DNA from: Umbelopsis ramanniana AG | Taxonomy: Eukaryota; Mucoromycota; Umbelopsidomycetes; Umbelopsidales; Umbelopsidaceae | Direction of reading: 5' to 3' | Assembly (NCBI RefSeq): GCF_025399195.1 | Contig: NW_026252087.1 | Coordinates: 186,001-250,000, forward strand | DNA length: 64,000 bases | Shown here: positions 1 to 62,088 of the stretch, one piece after another | Layout: every line of letters begins with the position of its first letter | Position numbering within the stretch: the first letter of the stretch is position 1 | Position numbers and translations under genes: made by a program | Notes under the pieces: model-generated | Seen by the model: the letters and a program-made list of their open reading frames with translations, nothing else | Told to the model about the DNA's origin: nothing | Database searches by the model: none

Positions 1-1
1 G

Positions 2-3000
2 AAATCATCCACGGACCAAAACGCAGTTCAAGAAGTTTCGGAAAAGGCTGAAAGAGAGAAAGCGGACCTGTTGAGCAAAATTCAAACTTTAGAAACGGAG
101 TTGATGAACAACAAGAGCCAACACGAGCATATGACCAAGTCTCATGATGAGGCCATTTCTGAGTTAAAGTCCAGAGAGGAGGAACTCAAGACAAAACTCA
201 CGGAAGCTGAAGCCAATCTCAAACAGATGAAGGATGACAATGAGACCGGTGCAAAGAAATTACTGGAAGACCAGCAAGCGAAACTTCGGGCTTCTGAGGA
301 GGAATTACAGGCAATTAAGAATGAACTCGACCAGCAAAAATTGAGCAGCCAGCAATCGCTGGATGAGCATGTTGCGAAGGTCAACCAGATACAGGAAGCA
401 CATGATACGGCTCAACAAACGATCTCCCTCAAAGACCAGGAAATTGAAAAGGCTCGAGAAGATCACCAATCTTTGCGGCAAAAGTTTGAGGATGTCAACA
501 CGGCACTAGCAGAGCATCAACAGAAGTCTGGTTTAATACCTAAATTGGAAGCACAAATTAGCGAACTTCTAAAGAAAGAAGAAGAGGCATCGAATAACTT
601 AACTGCGGAGCAGGCAGCAACAGAACGTCTGCAAGCAACACTTGACAGCCTGAATGAAACTTTGAATTCAAGCACAAGCGACAATGATGCTAAATTGCAG
701 AATTTGATCATGTCCCATAACAAAGAGAAGACTGAATGGGATGAAGCGACAGATAAGCTAAAAAGCGAAGTATCAGAGGTCGAGAAACTCACAGTAACGT
801 TACGTGAAACAGTAGCACAGCAAGAGCAAGCTATCAAGGAGAAAGAAGAACAGTTGTCGGCACTCAAAGAGAATGTAGACAACGCCAAATCTATTACCGA
901 ACAGATCGAAAACGAGAAGGATAGCTTGCAAAAAGAGCTCATCGCTTTGAAGGGCAAGTACGACAGTGTAATGAAACAAAAGGAGAAAACCCAAGCAGAG
1001 ATTGAACAGCACTTAGCCAACATCACGCAGCTACGGAAATCTGAAGAAAATGTATCATTGCAACTGAACAAGCTTTCACAAGAATTTGAAGCATATCGCA
1101 CTGAGACAGAGAAGGGACAGGAGGCGACTTCAGCTAAACACAAAAATGCTATGGAAAATGCAGCTCAAGCCGCCATGGATCGCGAAAAAGAACTTCAAGA
1201 AAGCTTGGAGAAGTTGGGAACTGAGAAAGGACAGCATGTATCCAACATTGCTCAGTTACGTGAATCACACGCCGACACATCATCCCAACTTGAGAAAGTA
1301 TTACAAGACCTTGAAACTCATCGCATTGATACATTGAAGGAACAAGAGGCTATGTCTTTGAAGCATAGAGAAGATCTGGATCAGGCAGCTCAAGAAGCCG
1401 AAAGCCGTGAACAAAAACTTCAAAATAGTCTGCAGAAGTTAGAGAATGAGATCGAACAACATGTTTCAACTATTGACCAGCTACGTGAATCTCACAGCGA
1501 CTCTTCATCCAAGCTTGAGAAGGTGTTGCAGGAATTTGAAGCCTACCGTACCGAAGTCTCGAAGGAGCAAGAAGCTACATTCCTAAAGCATCAAGAAGTC
1601 ATGGAGAAAGCAACACAAGACTCTTTGAGCCAAGAGAAAGAAATGAAAGCAAAGTTGCAGGAGTTGGAAAATGAAATTGAGCAACACGTCTCCAGTATCA
1701 CCGAGCTTCGTGATTCCAAGGCTGACACATCGTCACAATTAGAAAAGGCTATGCAAGAATTTGAAGCATATCGCGCCGACATGCTGAAGGGACAAGAAGC
1801 ATCAGCCTCAAAGCATAAAGAAGCCATGGATAGAGCAACCCAACAAGCCTTACATCGAGAACAAGAACTTCAAGCAAGTTTGCAAACGTTGCAGAGTGAA
1901 ATGGAGCAGCATGTTGCCAATATCAATGAGCTGAGTGATTCTAAGGCAGATACAGCATCTCAGCTTGAACAGGCTTTGCAGGATTTCGAAACCTTCCGCG
2001 CTAACACAGCAAAGGAAAAGGATGAAACAGAATCTAGCCATAAAGCTGCCATAGATAGAGCTGCCCAAGATGCTTTGAAGCGAGAGGAAGAACTCCAGGC
2101 CAGTTTAGACGAGATGAAGAATGATATCCAAAGAATCGACGCAGCCAAAAAGGAGATAGAGCAGCAAAAGTCTGAATTGGAGATGGAGCTTGAAACGCTC
2201 AAGGTAAGCCATGAACATCCAGCAGAGGGTTAAGTAAATTCAGATATTTGTAAAGCTAATATACAACGCTTTAGTCCATTGCTTCAGATCTGGAGTCTCA
2301 AAACTCGCAAAACGTGCAGACGATTAATGACCTTGAACATGTTAATTCTACGAAAACGGCTCAAAATGATGAACTTTCTCAATCACTGCAAGCGGTCAAG
2401 GCTGAATTGCAACAAAGTAATGATACCGCAGCAAAGGAAGCAGAGACCAAGGAGCAGCGTATTCATGAACTGCAAGCACAAGTTAACAAACAGGAGAAGA
2501 TTGCCACCAACAACCTTCAACAACTTGAAGAAGTCAGCGAAAAGCTTCAGAGGATCAACACAGAGTGCGAAGGTTATCGTGCTGAAATTGAACAGTTAAC
2601 AACTGAGAAGCAAGCAATGGAGGCTGATATCACAATGTACATAGCTACCAAGACAAGCTTGCAAGAGCAAATTACCAATTCGACCTCTCAAATTGCAAAG
2701 TTGGAGCAAGACCTAACAAACTCAACAACTGAAAAGGACGCTTTAAGTGAAGAAATCTCCAGTTTGAAAACTGCTCACAACGAAGAAATAGCCAAGATCA
2801 AATTGAGTCTGGAGAAGTCACAGGAAGAAGCCAAGTCTTTGGATGCAGAAAGGTTGGCATTATTGTCCTCACTAGAGGAATCTAAGAAGACAGCTGATCA
2901 GCAGGCAAAGACGTTACATGCTGAGCTGAAACAATTGAAGACAAATGAAGTCGAATTGAAAAATGAAATCCAGCAGCTCGAATCGAAGCTAGGTGAATAT

Positions 3001-5679
3001 CAAGTGGACAACGGTAGACTCAGCAAACAACTGGAAGATGCACAGTTGGCCAAGCAACATTTAGAGGACGAGTTGCGAACTGAATTGTCTCTTCATCAAC
3101 AAACGGCTGAGTCGAACCAAAAGGATGCTGCTAAGGAAATTGAACGATTGACTGGTGAACACTCGACTGTACGCGAAAAACTTGAAGCAGCGGAAGCTTT
3201 AGTGGTTCTTGAACAAAACAAATTGGCGAGTGCTCAAGCTGAGCATGAAAAAAATATGCTGGAAGCAAATGGAAAGCAGCAGTCCTTGGTGGAGGAGATG
3301 GATGACCTTCGTCAAACGCATGACAAGAGCATTACAGAGCTGAAGAATGCTCTTGAACAAGCAGAAAGCCAAACCTCTTTGCTTCAACAAGATCTAGATC
3401 ATCGACAATCATTATTGGATGACCTCCAGTCCAACCACAGCTTATTGGAAGAACAACTTACAAACCTTCGACTTGAACATGAAAAACTGAACCAAAACAG
3501 TAAGGCTACATCCAAGCGCCTTGCAGCCAAAATTTTACAACATAAAACGCAACAGAAGGAATTCGAGGATCAGAAACAATTGTTAGCAAACGAGGTATCT
3601 GATTTGCAAAAGGCAAAGGGCGACCTTCAGTCCGAGCTGGATGATGTCAAAGAAGAATACAGAAAAGAAATGCTGGATTCTCAATCAAAGATCTCAAATC
3701 TCGAAAAGGACAAAGCTATAGTAGAAAGTGATTTGACGTCGGCAAGAGCCAAAATCGATTCCATGTTGATCGAGCACACCATGACCAGCGACAAACTTCG
3801 ATCAGAATTGGAGGATACTATCTCCCAGCACCAATCTCAATTGCAGCAGCAACATGAAACTCAGGTAGCCCGCGACCAACAAATCTCTCAGCTTGAACAT
3901 CAAATCTCGTCACAAGTTGAGGAAATCACCAAGCTGCATGCTGATCTTGCCAAGAATGAGAACAAACTGGCGGAAGCAAAAGCGCAACTTGTTGAAACTC
4001 AATCATCGGCCGAAGCGGAACGAAGAACCATCATTGCCAAAAATGACGAACACGCGAAGCAGCTGCAATTAAAGCTTGAATCTAAGATGACAGAATTAGA
4101 GGACATACGGACATCACTGCAGTCAACGATCGATGACCAGTCGCACAAGAACAAAAAGCTTCAAAAGGAGAACGACTCTGTTTTGGAACAGTTGAGAGAG
4201 TCAAATAGTCAAGTTGACGCTTTGTCTCAAGATTTATCAGCCGAAAAAAGCACTGTCTCTAATTTGAAAGACCAACTGAGCAATGTCGAAGAGCAGTTGG
4301 CTCAAGGGAATCGCAAGATCGAAGGTAAGCGTTTATTTAATTGCACAGAAATGAGTTGATCATGTTCCGTGACTTACAGTGTGGGTCACACAGATCTGAC
4401 CGCCAACAGTGACGAAAAAACCGCCGAGATCCATGCTTTGCAGTTGGAGTTGAGTGGACTAAGATCAGAACTTGAAGCAACTGGTGAGAACCACTCAGCA
4501 GCATATAGTCAACTTACAGCCGCTTTGAAGGAACGAGAAAGTGCACTTGAGAAACTCAAGCAAGAACATGAAGCATCCAAGCTCTCTCATGAAAATAACT
4601 TGGCCGATGTCCAATCGTCGTACAAAGAGATGGCACACAGAGCGTCGGATCTGGAAGCTGAGGTAGCAACAATCAAAAAAGATTATGCGCAGAGCGAAAA
4701 GAGACTTCAGGCAGCCAACGTAACGCTCGAAGACGCAAAAGCTGAACACCAGAGTGCCTTGGAGATACTACAAAAGCAGCTGGATGACACCAACGTTCAA
4801 ATCTCTGAAACTCGTGCTCAACTATCAGATACTCAACGTGAACGACAAGCTATGGAAGAAACTGCCACTACGTCACAAGACGAGCTAGCTGCCTGTAAGC
4901 GTGACATCGAAAACATGGCAGAGAAACTTACTACATTGGAAGCAAATTTTGCCCGATCACAGCAAGAATTGGCAACTTCTGATGCGAAGCTTTTGTCGAT
5001 CACACAGGATAGGGAAGCCACGGAAAATAGCCTACGTGCTGAACTTGAACACGCAGAATCTTCATTGAAAGAAGCACTTTCGCAAATTTCTGACCTGAAA
5101 GCACAGGTTTCTGAAGCGCGAAAACAAGAAGAGGTATTGTTGGCCAGCCAAGTACCTGAGGACGAGCTGCAAAGTCTTAGAAACCACATGAAGGCAACTG
5201 AAGAGAAATATGAAGCTGAAGTCAAACAACTTCGCCAGCAAGTCCAAGACAGTGAGAGCCGTCTAGAACGACAACTCGGTGCGTTCAATACCATTAGAGG
5301 AGAGCTTACGGCGGTACGGGAACGTCAACTGGATCGGGAAGACGAAATAGAACAACAAATGCAAGCTCAAATTGATGAACTTCATCTAGATTTAACCGAA
5401 GCTTTTGAGAAAAGGAAACTTGCTGAAGATAAATTAGCTCAGAATGGGTTAAGTCCCGTCAGCGAGAGAGGATTTTGGGTATCGGATGATGGGCAAACCG
5501 ATACTGACCAATCTGATGGTGATGAAGAAGAACTTAGCCATCACCAAGAGCCTGAAGCGGTTGGAAAGCACCGCAGCCCGAATTTAGGAAGGATACCACC
5601 ACTTCAAAAGCCTCGATTTTCTGAATTCCATCATGTCCCACAGTGCAGTGGATGTCTGAGCGAAGCCTTTGACATATAG
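2..5679 (+). CDS. Giant coiled-coil protein (5' end outside window)
   Basis: Three exons are visible: 2-2203, 2275-4324 and 4394-5679 (stop TAG), joined by short introns with GTAAGC/GTAAGCG donors. The frame is open from the first bases, so the start lies upstream. The visible part is about 1845 residues. It is almost entirely charged heptad-type sequence rich in E, K, Q, L and S, with no visible catalytic motif. A tandem block of ~75-residue repeats lies at about 1000-2140. Only the last ~90 residues are not coiled coil: an acidic Asp/Gln segment followed by a basic Pro-rich stretch and a CSGC pair 12 residues from the end. The second acceptor was placed at 4393, not 4379, because only that keeps frame. 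AATAAA-like sequence follows the stop. The family is not recognised; a golgin, spindle-pole or tethering-type scaffold would fit the architecture, but that is inference. High confidence in coding, low in function. Confidence 0.88.
1000..2140 (+). repeat. Tandem ~75-residue coiled-coil repeats inside the giant coiled-coil gene
   Basis: Within exon 1, a unit of about 225-228 nt recurs about five times. Each unit carries a block like EQHVSxIxQLRES, then SQLEKxLQEFEAYR, then an AxxKHKEAMxxA block. The starts of the EQH blocks fall near 1004, 1231, 1454, 1679 and 1903. Units are diverged at the DNA level, so duplication is not very recent. Confidence 0.85.
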
Positions 5680-31685: not shown

Positions 31686-33517
31686 TTAATGGTGTTTGGG
31701 TGCACCAGGGGAAGCGTGATGGCCAATAACAATGCCATTGGAGAGCTTGTCACCGACTTGGGACTTATTGTCAGAATCAGCATTTTTGACCGAAGCGAGG
31801 GCATTAGTGGTGGTTCTGGGTCCAATGACATGGTTGTATTCGGGATTGCACTCGACCTGGAGGTAAAGCGCAGTTAGCATAGATGAATTATGCAAGCAAA
31901 ATCCTGCAAGGCGAATTGTTAATAGCAAAAAGTATAAATATTTACCTTGATGTAATCGAATTGAGCATCGAGTTCGGTGTACTGATGCCAGTTGATAGGA
32001 CCACCTCCCCAGCCGCTGTTTTGGTAACCAGCATCCCAAATGCCAATCTCCAAGCGAGATACCTAAAGAATTGGTTGCGATCAGTTATCTAGCATGTTAC
32101 AGAGTAAGACAGCTCTAATGGAAACATCTTATTGAATAGTAAACATACCTCCATGGGATACATGTATTCATTACCGCTGGAAGAGTAAGTGTCGGCCTTG
32201 TTGAGGGTACGAACAGTTTGGCCATCGACAATCCAAGTCATATGATCAGGATACCATTCAACACGGTACACATGGAAATCGGCAGAGGTGTTGAATCCAA
32301 CGTTGGGATAGTATTCATGATCTCCAATTTTTGAAGGTCCATCCATTCTTCCCTTTGAGAAATAGTTGCTCTCAAAGTACGTGGGACCGTGAGAATTGAA
32401 GAATTTAGGAGAACTAACATACAAAGAGAGTTCAGATCAGTTAGGTTAGCCACGTTAGAGTTCGAAGTTTAAATAGATATCTTTTTTTTTTTTTTGCATT
32501 TTCCGTCACGTACATTTCAATATCAATTTCGTCACCAGAGGCACTCATAGTGTTGAAAGTGGATACGGCACCAGCCACAGGGTTGGCTTTGACGCGAATT
32601 TCAATGTTACCGTATTGCATTTCAAAGGCCATATCGATGGTGGCAGCAACACCTTCGCTGTTTTGCTGGCCGCTTTTGTTGAAGGTAGGTGGAAGCATTT
32701 TCAAGGTAAGAATGCCATTTTTGACACTGTAGGCGCTTGGGCTACCTGAAATATTGACCATGTCGACGGAAGTAGACTGTGGGGCCCAGTCATCAGCTTC
32801 GACAATGACGGGGTTGTTGAAGTTCTCAGTGTAAGATCTGCATGTAGGCTTGGGATTCATTGGCGAAGGATGGAGTGGCCCGTATGAAGCAGTGGTAGTG
32901 CTAGATTTTGAATACGTTATTATCGAATGGGACAAAGTATAAAAAGATGTAGTAATGCCGATTTCTTACGCAGTGGTGGTAGTGGTGGTTGGTTTCTTGG
33001 TAGTGGTAGTAGTCTTCTTGGTAGTGGTAGTAGTCTTCTTAGTAGTGGTGGTGGTCTTCTTGGTAGTGGTGGTCTTCTTGGTAGTGGTGGTAGTCTTCTT
33101 GGTAGTGGTGGTAGCCTTCTTGGTAGTGGTGGTCTTCTTTGTGGTTTTGGGAGCAATATCACTGTTGAAAGTCGATAAGTAAAGTATGTGGAATTTTTAA
33201 GTATAAATGTATTTGCCGTACCAAATGGTTCCGTTAGGGTCATTGACACACTGAAGTGTGCTCAAATTACAGCAAGTGACACCTGCAGAAATTATTTAGT
33301 AAATCAGTTCGACTTCATAGATATATCCGATGTAGTTGATTTTACCAGGGCAATCTATAAACAACGACTAGTTAGTGCATGATTTTTTTTTGACATAATC
33401 TTTCGCTATTTCAATACCATTATCTGTTTTGCACGAAGAACGTGCAACCAATGTACCGGCAGAAGATGAAGCTACTAATGCTGCAAGGGTAAAGGTGGCA
33501 ATGGAAGACAAACGCAT
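31686..33517 (-). CDS. Secreted GH16 (Crh-like) cell-wall enzyme, copy A
   Basis: Eight exons: 33418-33517, 33346-33354 (9 nt), 33222-33282, 32970-33161, 32514-32900, 32149-32413, 31946-32062 and 31686-31856; 433 aa. Residues 1-20 are a signal peptide (MRLSSIATFTLAALVASSSA). A small Cys module follows (SCKTDNDCPGVTCCNLSTL to GTIC). A Lys/Thr linker of repeated TTTTKK units comes next, then the GH16 catalytic domain with the nucleophile/acid motif DEIDIE, MQYGNIEIRVK before it and FHVYRVEWYPDHMTWIVDG after it. Crh enzymes transfer chitin onto glucans in the wall; the same role is inferred. No GPI-anchor signal is seen at the C terminus. A near neighbour of copy B on the same strand. Confidence 0.92.
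32970..33161 (-). repeat. Minisatellite-like linker repeats, GH16 copy A
   Basis: Exon 4 is nearly all imperfect repeats of an 18-21-nt unit coding TTTTKK or TTTTTKK, forming a Thr/Lys linker likely to be O-mannosylated. Confidence 0.8.
33346..33354 (-). other. 9-nt exon of GH16 copy A
   Basis: ATTGCCCTG on the minus strand between a TTTATAG acceptor and a GTAAAATC donor. It encodes the join N-D-C-P-G inside the Cys module; skipping it would remove three residues including one Cys, while keeping frame. Confidence 0.8.
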
Positions 33518-34476: not shown

Positions 34477-36369
34477 CTAAATCTGCTCAATGGACTTGCT
34501 GGAGGCAGAACCAGGAGAGGCATGGTTATAGCCGGCATCGGCAACCTTACCAACGATGACCTTGGTGTCCTTTGGAGGGATACCAGGAGATGCATGTCGG
34601 CCAATCTTGATACCGCCAGGAAGAGTCTTGTTCAAATTGCGAGGAGCTTCTGCGTCCAAGTTGACGTTCAAGCTGACAGCCTTTGATGTTTGGGAAGCTC
34701 TAGCGGGAATGACGTGGTTGTAGATGGGATTGCATTCTATTTTGACGTAATCGAACCAAGCATTGACTTCCTTGTATTGGTGCCATGGGATAGGGCCACC
34801 ACTCCAGCCGCTAATTGAAAAGTAAAAGTTACGGTTTAGCAGACCGCCGTGATACGAAGTATACATGTCTTATTCACTTACGAGTTTGCAAATCCAGCGT
34901 CCCAGATACCAAGTTCAATGCGGGAAGGCTCAGTGGGGAAGATGTAATTGGTACCGTCGAAGGTTTCATTCTTGTTTTGAACATGAACGATTTTACCATC
35001 GGTTCTCCAGATGATGGAGTCAGTATTCCATTCAGCACGATAGACATGGAAGTCGGCAGAGGTGTTATATTTAAGATCAACATAACCACCATGAGTGACA
35101 CCAGGAGGACCAGAGCCTTGTCTACGGTAGAAATAGTTGTATTCTTGAATGCTAGGTGGTTGGGTGTTGAAATAATGAGGGGCCCTAAAATGTTTGTATT
35201 AGTCTACTGAATGATGGCTACTAATAAATCAGTCAGATGGCGTTGGTGATTTAAATACTACTTACATCTCAATATCAATTTCGTCGCCATTTTCAGACAT
35301 GGTGTTGATTGATGTGCAAACACCGTTGACAGGGCTGGTCTTCATTCTGACCTCAATGGCACCGTATTGCATCTCGAAAGCCATGTCAAGGGTAGCAGCT
35401 ACACCTTCAGTCTTGGGCTTTCCATTTGCGTTGAACTCTGGTTGCATCATTCTGAGCTTCAACATACCGTTCTCAATCTGGTATGCACTCTTAGAACCGG
35501 AGAGATTGACCATGTCGACGTTGGTGGACGTAGGTGCCCAATCATCAGCTTCTTGGACAACGGTGTTGGTGAAATCTTCAGTGTATGAACGGCAAGTGGG
35601 CTTAGGATTCATGGGAGCAGGATTCATAGGACCGTATGAAGGAGTGCTGGACGAAAATAAATGTTAGAATCGATGGAGGGCAATATCGGGTACTTGGTGA
35701 AATTACCACTTACGCAGTGGTTGTGGTGCTTTTGCGTGTGGTGGTCGTGGACTTTTTGGTGGTAGTAGACTTTTTGGTGGTGGTAGAAGACTTCTTGGTG
35801 GTGGATGACTTCTTAGTGGTAGTAGAAGACTTCTTGGTGGTGGACGACTTCTTGGTGGTGGTAGAAGACTTCTTGGTGGTGGAAGACTTCTTAGTGGTGG
35901 TAGATGACTTCTTAGTGGTGGTGGATGTCTTCTTGGTGGTGGAAGTTTTCTTGGTAGTGGTAGTCTTCTTGGGAGGAATGTCACTGTTGAAATGAGTACG
36001 TTTAGTTGATCTGTTGCCTATAGTGAATCATCGTTCGATTGACATACCAAATGGTTCCATGTGGGTCGCTAACACATTTCAAAGTGCTCAAATTACAACA
36101 TGTAACGCCTGCGAATAAGACATCAGTATTGCTACAGGAGGTGAATCAAGCAGCAGCATCCATCCTTACCAGGACAATCTAAAAAAAAAGTGTCAGCAAT
36201 AATCCGGACTATTATATTTTTCCTAGTATAAACGAGACAGTGGCAATAACTTACCATTGTCGTTCTTGCAAGACGCTGCACGTTTTTCAAGGACTGGAGA
36301 AAATGGTGAAGCGGTGGCGGCGCTTATGAAGGTTGCTATAGCAAGCGCAGCAACGTACGATAGACGCAT
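34477..36369 (-). CDS. Secreted GH16 (Crh-like) cell-wall enzyme, copy B
   Basis: Seven exons: 36255-36369, 36170-36178 (9 nt), 36048-36108, 35714-35983, 35266-35646, 34882-35184 and 34477-34810; 490 aa. Same plan as copy A: signal peptide (MRLSYVAALAIATFISAATA) and a short propeptide ending in Lys-Arg. Then comes the Cys module (SCKNDNDCPGVTCCNLSTL) and a longer Ser/Thr/Lys linker. The catalytic domain has DEIDIE, MQYGAIEVRMK and FHVYRAEWNTD. After the catalytic domain it has a longer C-terminal tail containing two HASPG repeats. No GPI signal. Compared with copy A, two downstream introns are missing and one is at a new position, while the first five exon junctions are identical, so the pair arose by duplication followed by intron change. 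Confidence 0.92.
35714..35983 (-). repeat. Minisatellite-like linker repeats, GH16 copy B
   Basis: Exon 4 is built of repeated units coding KKSSTTT or KKSSTT, about 18-21 nt each. It is longer than in copy A (270 versus 192 nt). Confidence 0.8.
36170..36178 (-). other. 9-nt exon of GH16 copy B
   Basis: ATTGTCCTG on the minus strand between an A/T-rich ..TTTTTTAG acceptor and a GTAAGGATG donor; same position and phase as in copy A. Confidence 0.8.
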
Positions 36370-60941: not shown

Positions 60942-62088
60942 ATGAAGTGCGTAAATCCATCCATCTATCCATCGTGCATCCATCGTTCATCTGTACTGAC
61001 CCTACATCTCTCATCACCATTACAACCTATCTTGACTTTTACAACTTGACATTTGCTTACCGATTGCCACTTTTTTTTTTTTTTCTTTGCCCATGTTTGA
61101 CATTGCCTGTTCATTGCCATTCATTCAAACAGGACTGAAATCTGCGCTTTCTCTGGTTACAAGATCTACCCCGCAAAGGGTAAGATTTATGTTCGCACTG
61201 ACAACAGGTGAGTCTTGCATTTCTATGTGTCGAAACACTCACTGTGATGGAAACTGATGAGCCCTGGTTTTTCTTTGTTATTACAGAGTATGTACTTTAC
61301 ACCTATTTTTCTCGATGTTTTTTTGGTAGCGCGTACAGAGAGAGGGAAAGTCATAGTTTCAGCAACTTCGAAATTGCCCCGGATTCCAGCAATATCGATG
61401 AAGACTCGGCCCACAATACCTAAAAAAGCACCATTGTGACATTATACTTTTGACACCATAACAAAATTCCATCCGCCTTTTTAACGAACCATCTCATTTT
61501 TACCTTATACGCAATGAACGCCATAGCCGATCGTATCTTCACTACCTTCTCCATCGAATATGCCCTGCCGACTGCTGCTTCCATTTCCTTCCAGTGTACG
61601 CGTATGATAAACTAACTGACCTCTTTCTTCTCCCCACAAAGTCTTTCCGTTTCGTCAACGGTAAGTGCGAGTCCTACTTCAAGCAGCGTTTGAACCCTCG
61701 CAAGATCGACTGGACCGTTGTCTACCGTCGCATGCACAAGAAGGGTATCACTGAGGAAGTTGCCAAGAAGCGCACCCGCCGCACTGTCAAGCACGACCGT
61801 GCTGTCGTCGGTGCTTCCTGGGATGCCATCCGTGCCAAGCGTGCCCAGAAGCCCGAAGTCCGTGCTGCTGCTCGCCAGGCTGCTGTTGCCAAGTCCAAGG
61901 AGGCTAAGAAGGCCAAGGCTGCTACCAAGACCACCGTAAGTACCAGCTGAGTTTTCCATACTCTTTTTTTTTTCCATTGTTCCAATCCCCCACTGACATC
62001 GTCTTATTTGTAGAACGCTAACCAGCCCAAGGTCAGCAAGCAACAAGCCAAGGGTTTCGCTCCCAAGGCCGCCGCCACCTCTCGTTAA
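60942..62088 (+). CDS. RPL24: 60S ribosomal protein L24 (eL24)
   Basis: Coding exons: 60942-60946 (ATGAA), 61133-61207, a single base at 61287, 61642-61935 and 62014-62088; 149 aa. The product starts [20 protein letters not shown], continues [19 protein letters not shown], and ends [14 protein letters not shown], closely matching yeast Rpl24 (VAATSR end). The N-terminal part holds the L24e zinc-ribbon-like fold, though only some of the Cys positions are kept. Exon 2 ends in phase 2 while the exon at 61642 starts in phase 0. The frame is restored only if the A at 61287, which sits between a TTATTACAG acceptor and a GTATGT donor, is an exon; it completes the Arg codon that the family has at this point. 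Coding GC is high, as expected of a ribosomal protein gene. Confidence 0.93.
61287..61287 (+). other. RPL24: Candidate 1-nt exon of RPL24
   Basis: The local sequence is CTTTGTTATTACAG, A, GTATGTAC. The acceptor has a pyrimidine tract and a branch-like CTGAT about 35 nt upstream; the donor is a near-consensus GTATGT. Including the single A turns AG at the end of exon 2 into AGA (Arg) and makes 5+75+1 = 81 nt before the next phase-0 exon. Confidence 0.65.

Follow-up and report, generated by a model that had tools for sequence, protein, structure and literature searches.

The window, a 64-kb stretch of the Umbelopsis ramanniana AG genome (22.8 Mb in 123 contigs), comprises bases 186001-250000 of contig C1, and a taxonomy lookup places Umbelopsis in the Mucoromycota, Mucoromycotina, Umbelopsidales. 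The plus-strand gene at 60942-62088 is that of ribosomal protein eL24 (RPL24), which encodes 149 aa in a frame that is open to the stop codon (Table 1). The Ribosomal_L24e profile (PF01246) matched exon 2 with 43 bits and exon 3 with 59.2 bits, above the curated cut-off, and the encoded protein aligned with the five printed eL24 sequences of solved structure free of gaps from residue 1 (residue 2 in one of them) to about residue 102. The top three database proteins came from Umbelopsis, and the comparison with the U. vinacea protein showed 121 of 122 residues to be identical from SFRF onward. An Rfam scan of the 64-kb window found nothing above the gathering score.

Table 1. Coordinates of the eL24 gene and of the splice features discussed (positions in the window; slashes within motifs mark splice junctions)
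Feature	Position	Strand	Remarks
eL24 exon 1, coding part ATGAA	60942..60946	+	donor GTGCGT next; ATGAA/GT also in the C42 paralogue
eL24 exon 2	61133..61207	+	ends GACAACAG (..GAC AAC AG), phase 2; donor GTGAGT
In-exon pseudo-donor GTTCGC	61191..61196	+	used by public models such as P0001; removes VRTDNR
Intron 2	61208..61286	+	79 nt, GTGAGT...TTATTACAG, with TTATTACAG at 61278-61286; paralogue counterpart 70 nt
Candidate single-nucleotide exon A	61287..61287	+	third base of the Arg27 codon AGA
Intron 3	61288..61641	+	354 nt, GTATGT (61288-61293)...AAACTAAC...CCCCACAAAG, branch site assigned by eye; paralogue counterpart 94 nt with TACTAAC
Decoy one-base candidate T	61595..61595	+	CCAG-T-GTACGC; Ser27 if used
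eL24 exon 3	61642..61935	+	phase-0 start TCT TTC CGT at the conserved family block, acceptor ..CCACAAAG
eL24 exon 4	62014..62088	+	includes the stop codon TAA
Predicted mRNA across the junctions	61207/61287 and 61287/61642		contains GACAACAGATCTTTC

Elsewhere in the window, bases 1-4000 show a strong skew of A over T, and long open frames lie on the plus strand at 2-2233, 2314-4359 and 4369-5679. Judged by eye, bases 1-1800 read as a Glu/Lys/Gln-rich, coiled-coil-like protein with repeated stretches, and coding of this composition may account for the A excess. Two minisatellite arrays about 2.6 kb apart (32977-33139 and 35738-35972) are built of related TGGTGGTGGTCTTCT-like units with periods of 18, 21, 39 and 60, and possibly code on the minus strand for Lys/Thr-rich protein repeats.

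The first-pass annotation had read exon 2 as ending with AG in phase 2 and the next conserved block as starting in phase 0 directly after an acceptor, and the coordinates of both were confirmed. Since a direct join of a phase-2 end to a phase-0 start shifts the frame, one extra base is needed; joining exon 2 straight to exon 3 leads to a stop after 132 coding nucleotides, and likewise in a second eL24 copy located on contig C42. A single A between TTATTACAG and GTATGT supplies the base and, together with the AG of exon 2, forms the codon AGA for Arg27, a position occupied by Lys in the five printed sequences of solved structure. This A has a canonical acceptor before it and a canonical donor after it; without it, the reading frame is lost and a conserved codon stays incomplete. 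The arrangement is the same in the C42 copy. Judging from the genomic sequence, we consider position 61287 very likely to be a genuine single-nucleotide exon. The earlier proposal that an A within 61278-61293 completes the Arg codon thus stands, with support from the arrangement in the paralogue, the scores of the possible splice paths and the breakage of public gene models within one clade.

The second eL24 gene (locus L002, minus strand) shares this layout of five exons. It begins with ATGAA, its exon 2 ends GACAACAG/GTAAGA, and a 70-nt intron ending in TTTTGCAG is followed by A and GTACGT; the second intron of 94 nt ends in CTCATTCAG, after which the coding sequence resumes with TCC TTC CGT. 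The two copies differ by 39 synonymous and 6 nonsynonymous codon changes among 150 codons, with 30 of 72 fourfold sites changed. Their intron interiors are only weakly similar: for intron 2, the local score was 10, where 500 base shuffles averaged 7.7 (p about 0.10), and for intron 3 it was 14, where they averaged 10.4 (p about 0.05). The one-base exon has therefore outlived most of the neighboring intron sequence, the same base being conserved at the same place in a diverged homolog.

The paralogue also bears on two explanations that would dispense with a one-base exon. A sequencing error or pseudogene, in which exon 2 or exon 3 has lost a base and a single ordinary intron separates them, is almost certainly not the answer: one indel could account for one conflict, but in the diverged paralogue both the phase conflict and the A recur, and the frames of both copies are open to the stop. 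Alternatively, a non-canonical intron with TG-AG, TA-AG, GT-AA or GT-CA termini could be shifted by one base. A G follows exon 2 in both copies, and AG plus G (AGG) would also encode Arg27. However, unusual termini would be needed in both copies although both offer canonical sites for a one-base exon, and we know of no U2 introns with any of these four pairs of termini; we regard this explanation as scarcely credible.

In order to compare the single-nucleotide exon with other splice paths, GT/AG paths across the junction with introns of at least 40 nt were enumerated, allowing either one intron or a microexon of 1-30 nt, and the open products were scored with an HMM built from 78 intact eL24 models, all from outside the Mucoromycotina set. 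The window gave 537 paths, of which 80 were open (5 with a single intron), and the paralogue gave 92, of which 25 were open (7 with a single intron). The path through the A scored highest in both copies, with 262.9 bits in the window, where the best single intron reached 235.9, and 261.6 bits in the paralogue, where the next path scored 242.2 and the best single intron 237.9. The one-base path thus exceeds the best single intron by 24-27 bits. In the window, the runner-up at 260.4 bits, 2.5 lower than the top, uses the T at 61595, which has a good pyrimidine tract and would place Ser at position 27. We consider it highly improbable that this T is the one-base exon of the window gene, whether alone or as a minor alternative. 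No T-exon path is among the best six of the paralogue, and Ser27 contrasts with the Lys of the five printed sequences of solved structure, as well as with 49 Arg and 29 Lys in the 78 training models, a count that is supportive only, as these models were selected by a pattern requiring Arg or Lys. Additionally, the T would leave a downstream intron of 46 nt, whereas the other introns of both genes measure 62-354 nt.

We also asked how readily such a site arises by chance. Of 5000 dinucleotide shuffles made for each gene, 4 contained YAG-R-GTRNGT with at least 40 nt of intron on either side in the case of the window gene (434-nt region) and 0 in that of the paralogue (165-nt region). The pattern alone is not special, since 2.35 matches are expected on the two strands of the 64-kb window and 3 are present; what carries the weight is where it lies, which base it holds and that the paralogue repeats it.

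Public eL24 models break at the same junction. From two protein searches (best 120 of each), 146 distinct listed proteins were classified as intact when they carried the VRxDxR-xFxF junction and as broken otherwise, the rows being mutually dependent. Broken junctions were found in 47 of the 66 named Mucoromycotina models listed (6/6 in Umbelopsis and 41/60 in Mucorales); 19 of 27 genera had one or more broken models. In contrast, 79 of the 80 listed models outside this set, which are from named fungi outside the clade or are unnamed proteins, were intact. The sole exception, P0069 (..TIQ/TFRF), is an unnamed metagenome protein with 94% identity to the window protein over 48% matching, and its sequence looks like an unspliced Umbelopsis-like ORF with the CAG acceptor in phase 0. 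Mucoromycotina are not simply worse annotated, since models starting with MK or MR, for which a tiny first coding exon is needed, account for 46 of the 80 models outside the clade and 41 of the 66 within it. The 19 intact Mucoromycotina models represent 19 copies in 18 genera and may reflect good curation, or the loss of one intron in those copies.

The ways in which the models break are varied. A DSR-V-R/C/S reading, as from a GTACGT, GTATGT or GTAAGT donor directly after the Arg codon, occurs in 8 of the 47; DSR-Y, as if a phase-2 donor AG/GTAY had been read through, occurs in 2; DSS, with the phase-2 AG joined elsewhere, in 4; exon 2 is in the wrong frame in 9; and 13 fall under other modes. 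Two of these 13, P0126 from Rhizopus arrhizus and P0129 from Mucor hiemalis, continue as DSR-LSVS.., which reads as the phase-2 AG set straight onto an exon 3 beginning ACT TTC CGT.., one base short. The remaining 11 models lack VRxDxR, as by use of the GT of the Val codon (scripted count).

Taken at face value, this last class would mean a single intron from the GTTCGC at 61191 to 61642 and a mature protein without VRTDNR, as modeled in Umbelopsis sp. AD052, PMI_123, Rhizopus arrhizus and others. Such an intron restores the frame with no foreign residues, so that the claim in the first-pass annotation that no other donor and acceptor pair could do so needs qualifying for this in-frame deletion. 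The AD052 model P0001 is identical to the C42 paralogue except for the missing VRTDNR. However, the deletion takes six residues out of a stretch found intact in the 79 non-clade models and in the five printed sequences of solved structure, GTTCGC is a poor donor beside CAG/GTGAGT, and the path scores 235.9 bits in the window and 234.5 at its paralogue counterpart, in each copy 27 bits below the one-base path. Models of other species escape the conflict in several different ways, as would be expected if the deletion were an escape of the gene caller rather than biology, and we hold this single intron to be very unlikely.

Because many related fungal gene models fail at the same spot, this very small exon may be ancient and may have been missed widely. 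From the protein models we infer both intron positions within the clade, with Mucor and Lichtheimia showing both kinds of model, and these annotation errors suggest that the one-base exon is probably ancestral to Mucoromycotina. A search of the protein database for exon-2 fragments, with the aim of obtaining the donors of other species, gave no candidate. Scanning a genome-contig and a viral-contig collection for relatives gave no DNA of these species; the one match, among the genome contigs, was an Acidobacteria MAG with 37% identity over residues 86-149, a K/A-rich stretch. The eL24 junction in public records such as P0001-P0003, P0015-P0017 and P0022 calls for re-annotation.

A third locus with an L24e domain, L003 (G000:C14:33548-36658), is identified by its sequence as RLP24, the eL24-like ribosome biogenesis protein; its last coding block matched solved RLP24 chains with 149 bits and eL24 with at most 34. 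At the homologous site, RLP24 has one phase-0 intron (AAC GAC GCA AAG/GTACAG..TTCTAG/ACT TTC CGT), and the second residue past this intron aligns with residue 29 of RLP24 and eL24 chains. Since RLP24 has a phase-0 intron at the same place, the phase-0 intron would be the older of the two in eL24. A second intron would have entered later at a proto-splice site CAG^A, one base upstream, before the split of Umbelopsidales and Mucorales.

In the mature eL24 mRNA, the Arg27 codon AGA would be assembled from three exons, with AG from exon 2, the A, and then exon 3 in phase 0. The spliceosome can hardly occupy both sites of a one-base exon together, so introns 2 and 3 would be excised in succession, by intron definition; Guo and Liu make a similar steric argument for the consecutive removal of the introns of APC11 (PMC4674806). 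The upstream intron 2 would most likely go first, as it is short in both copies and its removal keeps the CAGA/GTAYGT context unchanged: exon 2, like intron 2, ends in CAG, and the donor of intron 3 is thus alike before and after. For potato invertase, the same authors report that the second intron is the first to be excised (PMC4674806). The order with intron 2 first therefore cannot be taken for granted in eL24, although it seems likelier.

An early stop follows if the A is skipped or either intron is retained, so that eL24 could in principle tune its own mRNA; in the skip product, the stop lies 242 nt upstream of the last exon junction in both copies. It is conceivable, if rather doubtful, that the exon, arising in the ancestor of Mucorales and Umbelopsidales, has been kept since as a built-in switch by which eL24 adjusts its mRNA through unproductive splicing and nonsense-mediated decay. 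Any regulatory use of the one-base exon is speculation.

Confirmed nuclear one-base exons that we found in print comprise two plant genes and one Fusarium P450 family. The Arabidopsis example mentioned in the first-pass annotation exists: Guo and Liu (2015, PMC4674806) describe a constitutive, experimentally shown one-base exon in APC11. As reported there, it resembles that of eL24 in lying between two introns, being essential for the frame, having been mis-annotated (for APC11, in GenBank) and having consecutive removal proposed. APC11 differs as a plant cell-cycle gene with experimental proof, while the eL24 exon is predicted from sequence. RNA-seq and RT-PCR are reported to support 1-nt microexons in APC11 and VPS55 across land plants (PMC8831610). 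Both these and the eL24 exon are absent from annotations, the plant exons are conserved over a large clade, as the eL24 exon probably is, and the plant genes are duplicated in many species; they are other genes in another kingdom, and the VPS55 exon is described as alternatively included in some plants. Nelson and Syed (2026, PMC12940212) present a one-nucleotide exon in Fusarium CYP621A, supported by SRA reads, as the first for a fungal gene. Both CYP621A and eL24 are fungal nuclear genes in which the phase is restored within a conserved motif and the exon was found by comparison with homologs. However, the CYP621A base is described as the middle one of a glycine codon, and this P450 is rarely expressed and belongs to a single ascomycete genus, whereas the eL24 base would end an Arg codon in a Mucoromycotina gene for a core ribosomal protein. 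Single-nucleotide exons have also been described in mitochondria (PMC5436844, PMC12308204).

Two other known systems resemble the eL24 site in part. In stwintrons of fungi, an internal intron is described as interrupting a splice signal of an external intron (PMC5639578), so that two introns at nearly one place are excised in succession. A stwintron was rejected for eL24, where GTGAGT..CAG and GTATGT..AAG both have all their signals and are kept apart by one exonic base. Ratchet points are described as a directly juxtaposed acceptor and donor, mostly in long introns, that leave nothing in the mRNA (PMC8605326). They share with eL24 a nearly juxtaposed acceptor and donor and a stepwise removal, but one coding base stays in the eL24 mRNA. 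The first-pass annotation had left a choice between a true exon and a recursive site leaving one base. The two give an identical final mRNA, and the one-base exon reading held; a 0-nt ratchet point was rejected, as both copies have CAG-A-GT and not AG directly before GT.

The open-licence literature gave nothing on microexons in Umbelopsis or Mucoromycota or on introns of Rhizopus ribosomal protein L24; a search combining RPL24 and microexon gave unrelated matches only, and none of the matches listed for fungal microexons concerned eL24. Within this literature, the kind of exon is already known, and its occurrence in this gene and this lineage, as well as the depth to which it is probably conserved, appear to be new.

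If the one-base exon is confirmed, dozens of public eL24 models would be corrected, and the locus would offer a tractable system for testing the order of splicing. It would also predict that relatives in which either of the two introns is lost show a one-base intron 'slide', which provides a concrete test bearing on a debated phenomenon. Finally, the gene concerned encodes a core ribosomal protein, and the exon would be retained in both of its diverged copies and probably throughout a fungal subphylum. Such a case would mean that spliceosomes can deal dependably with an exon of one base in an essential gene, and over long periods.
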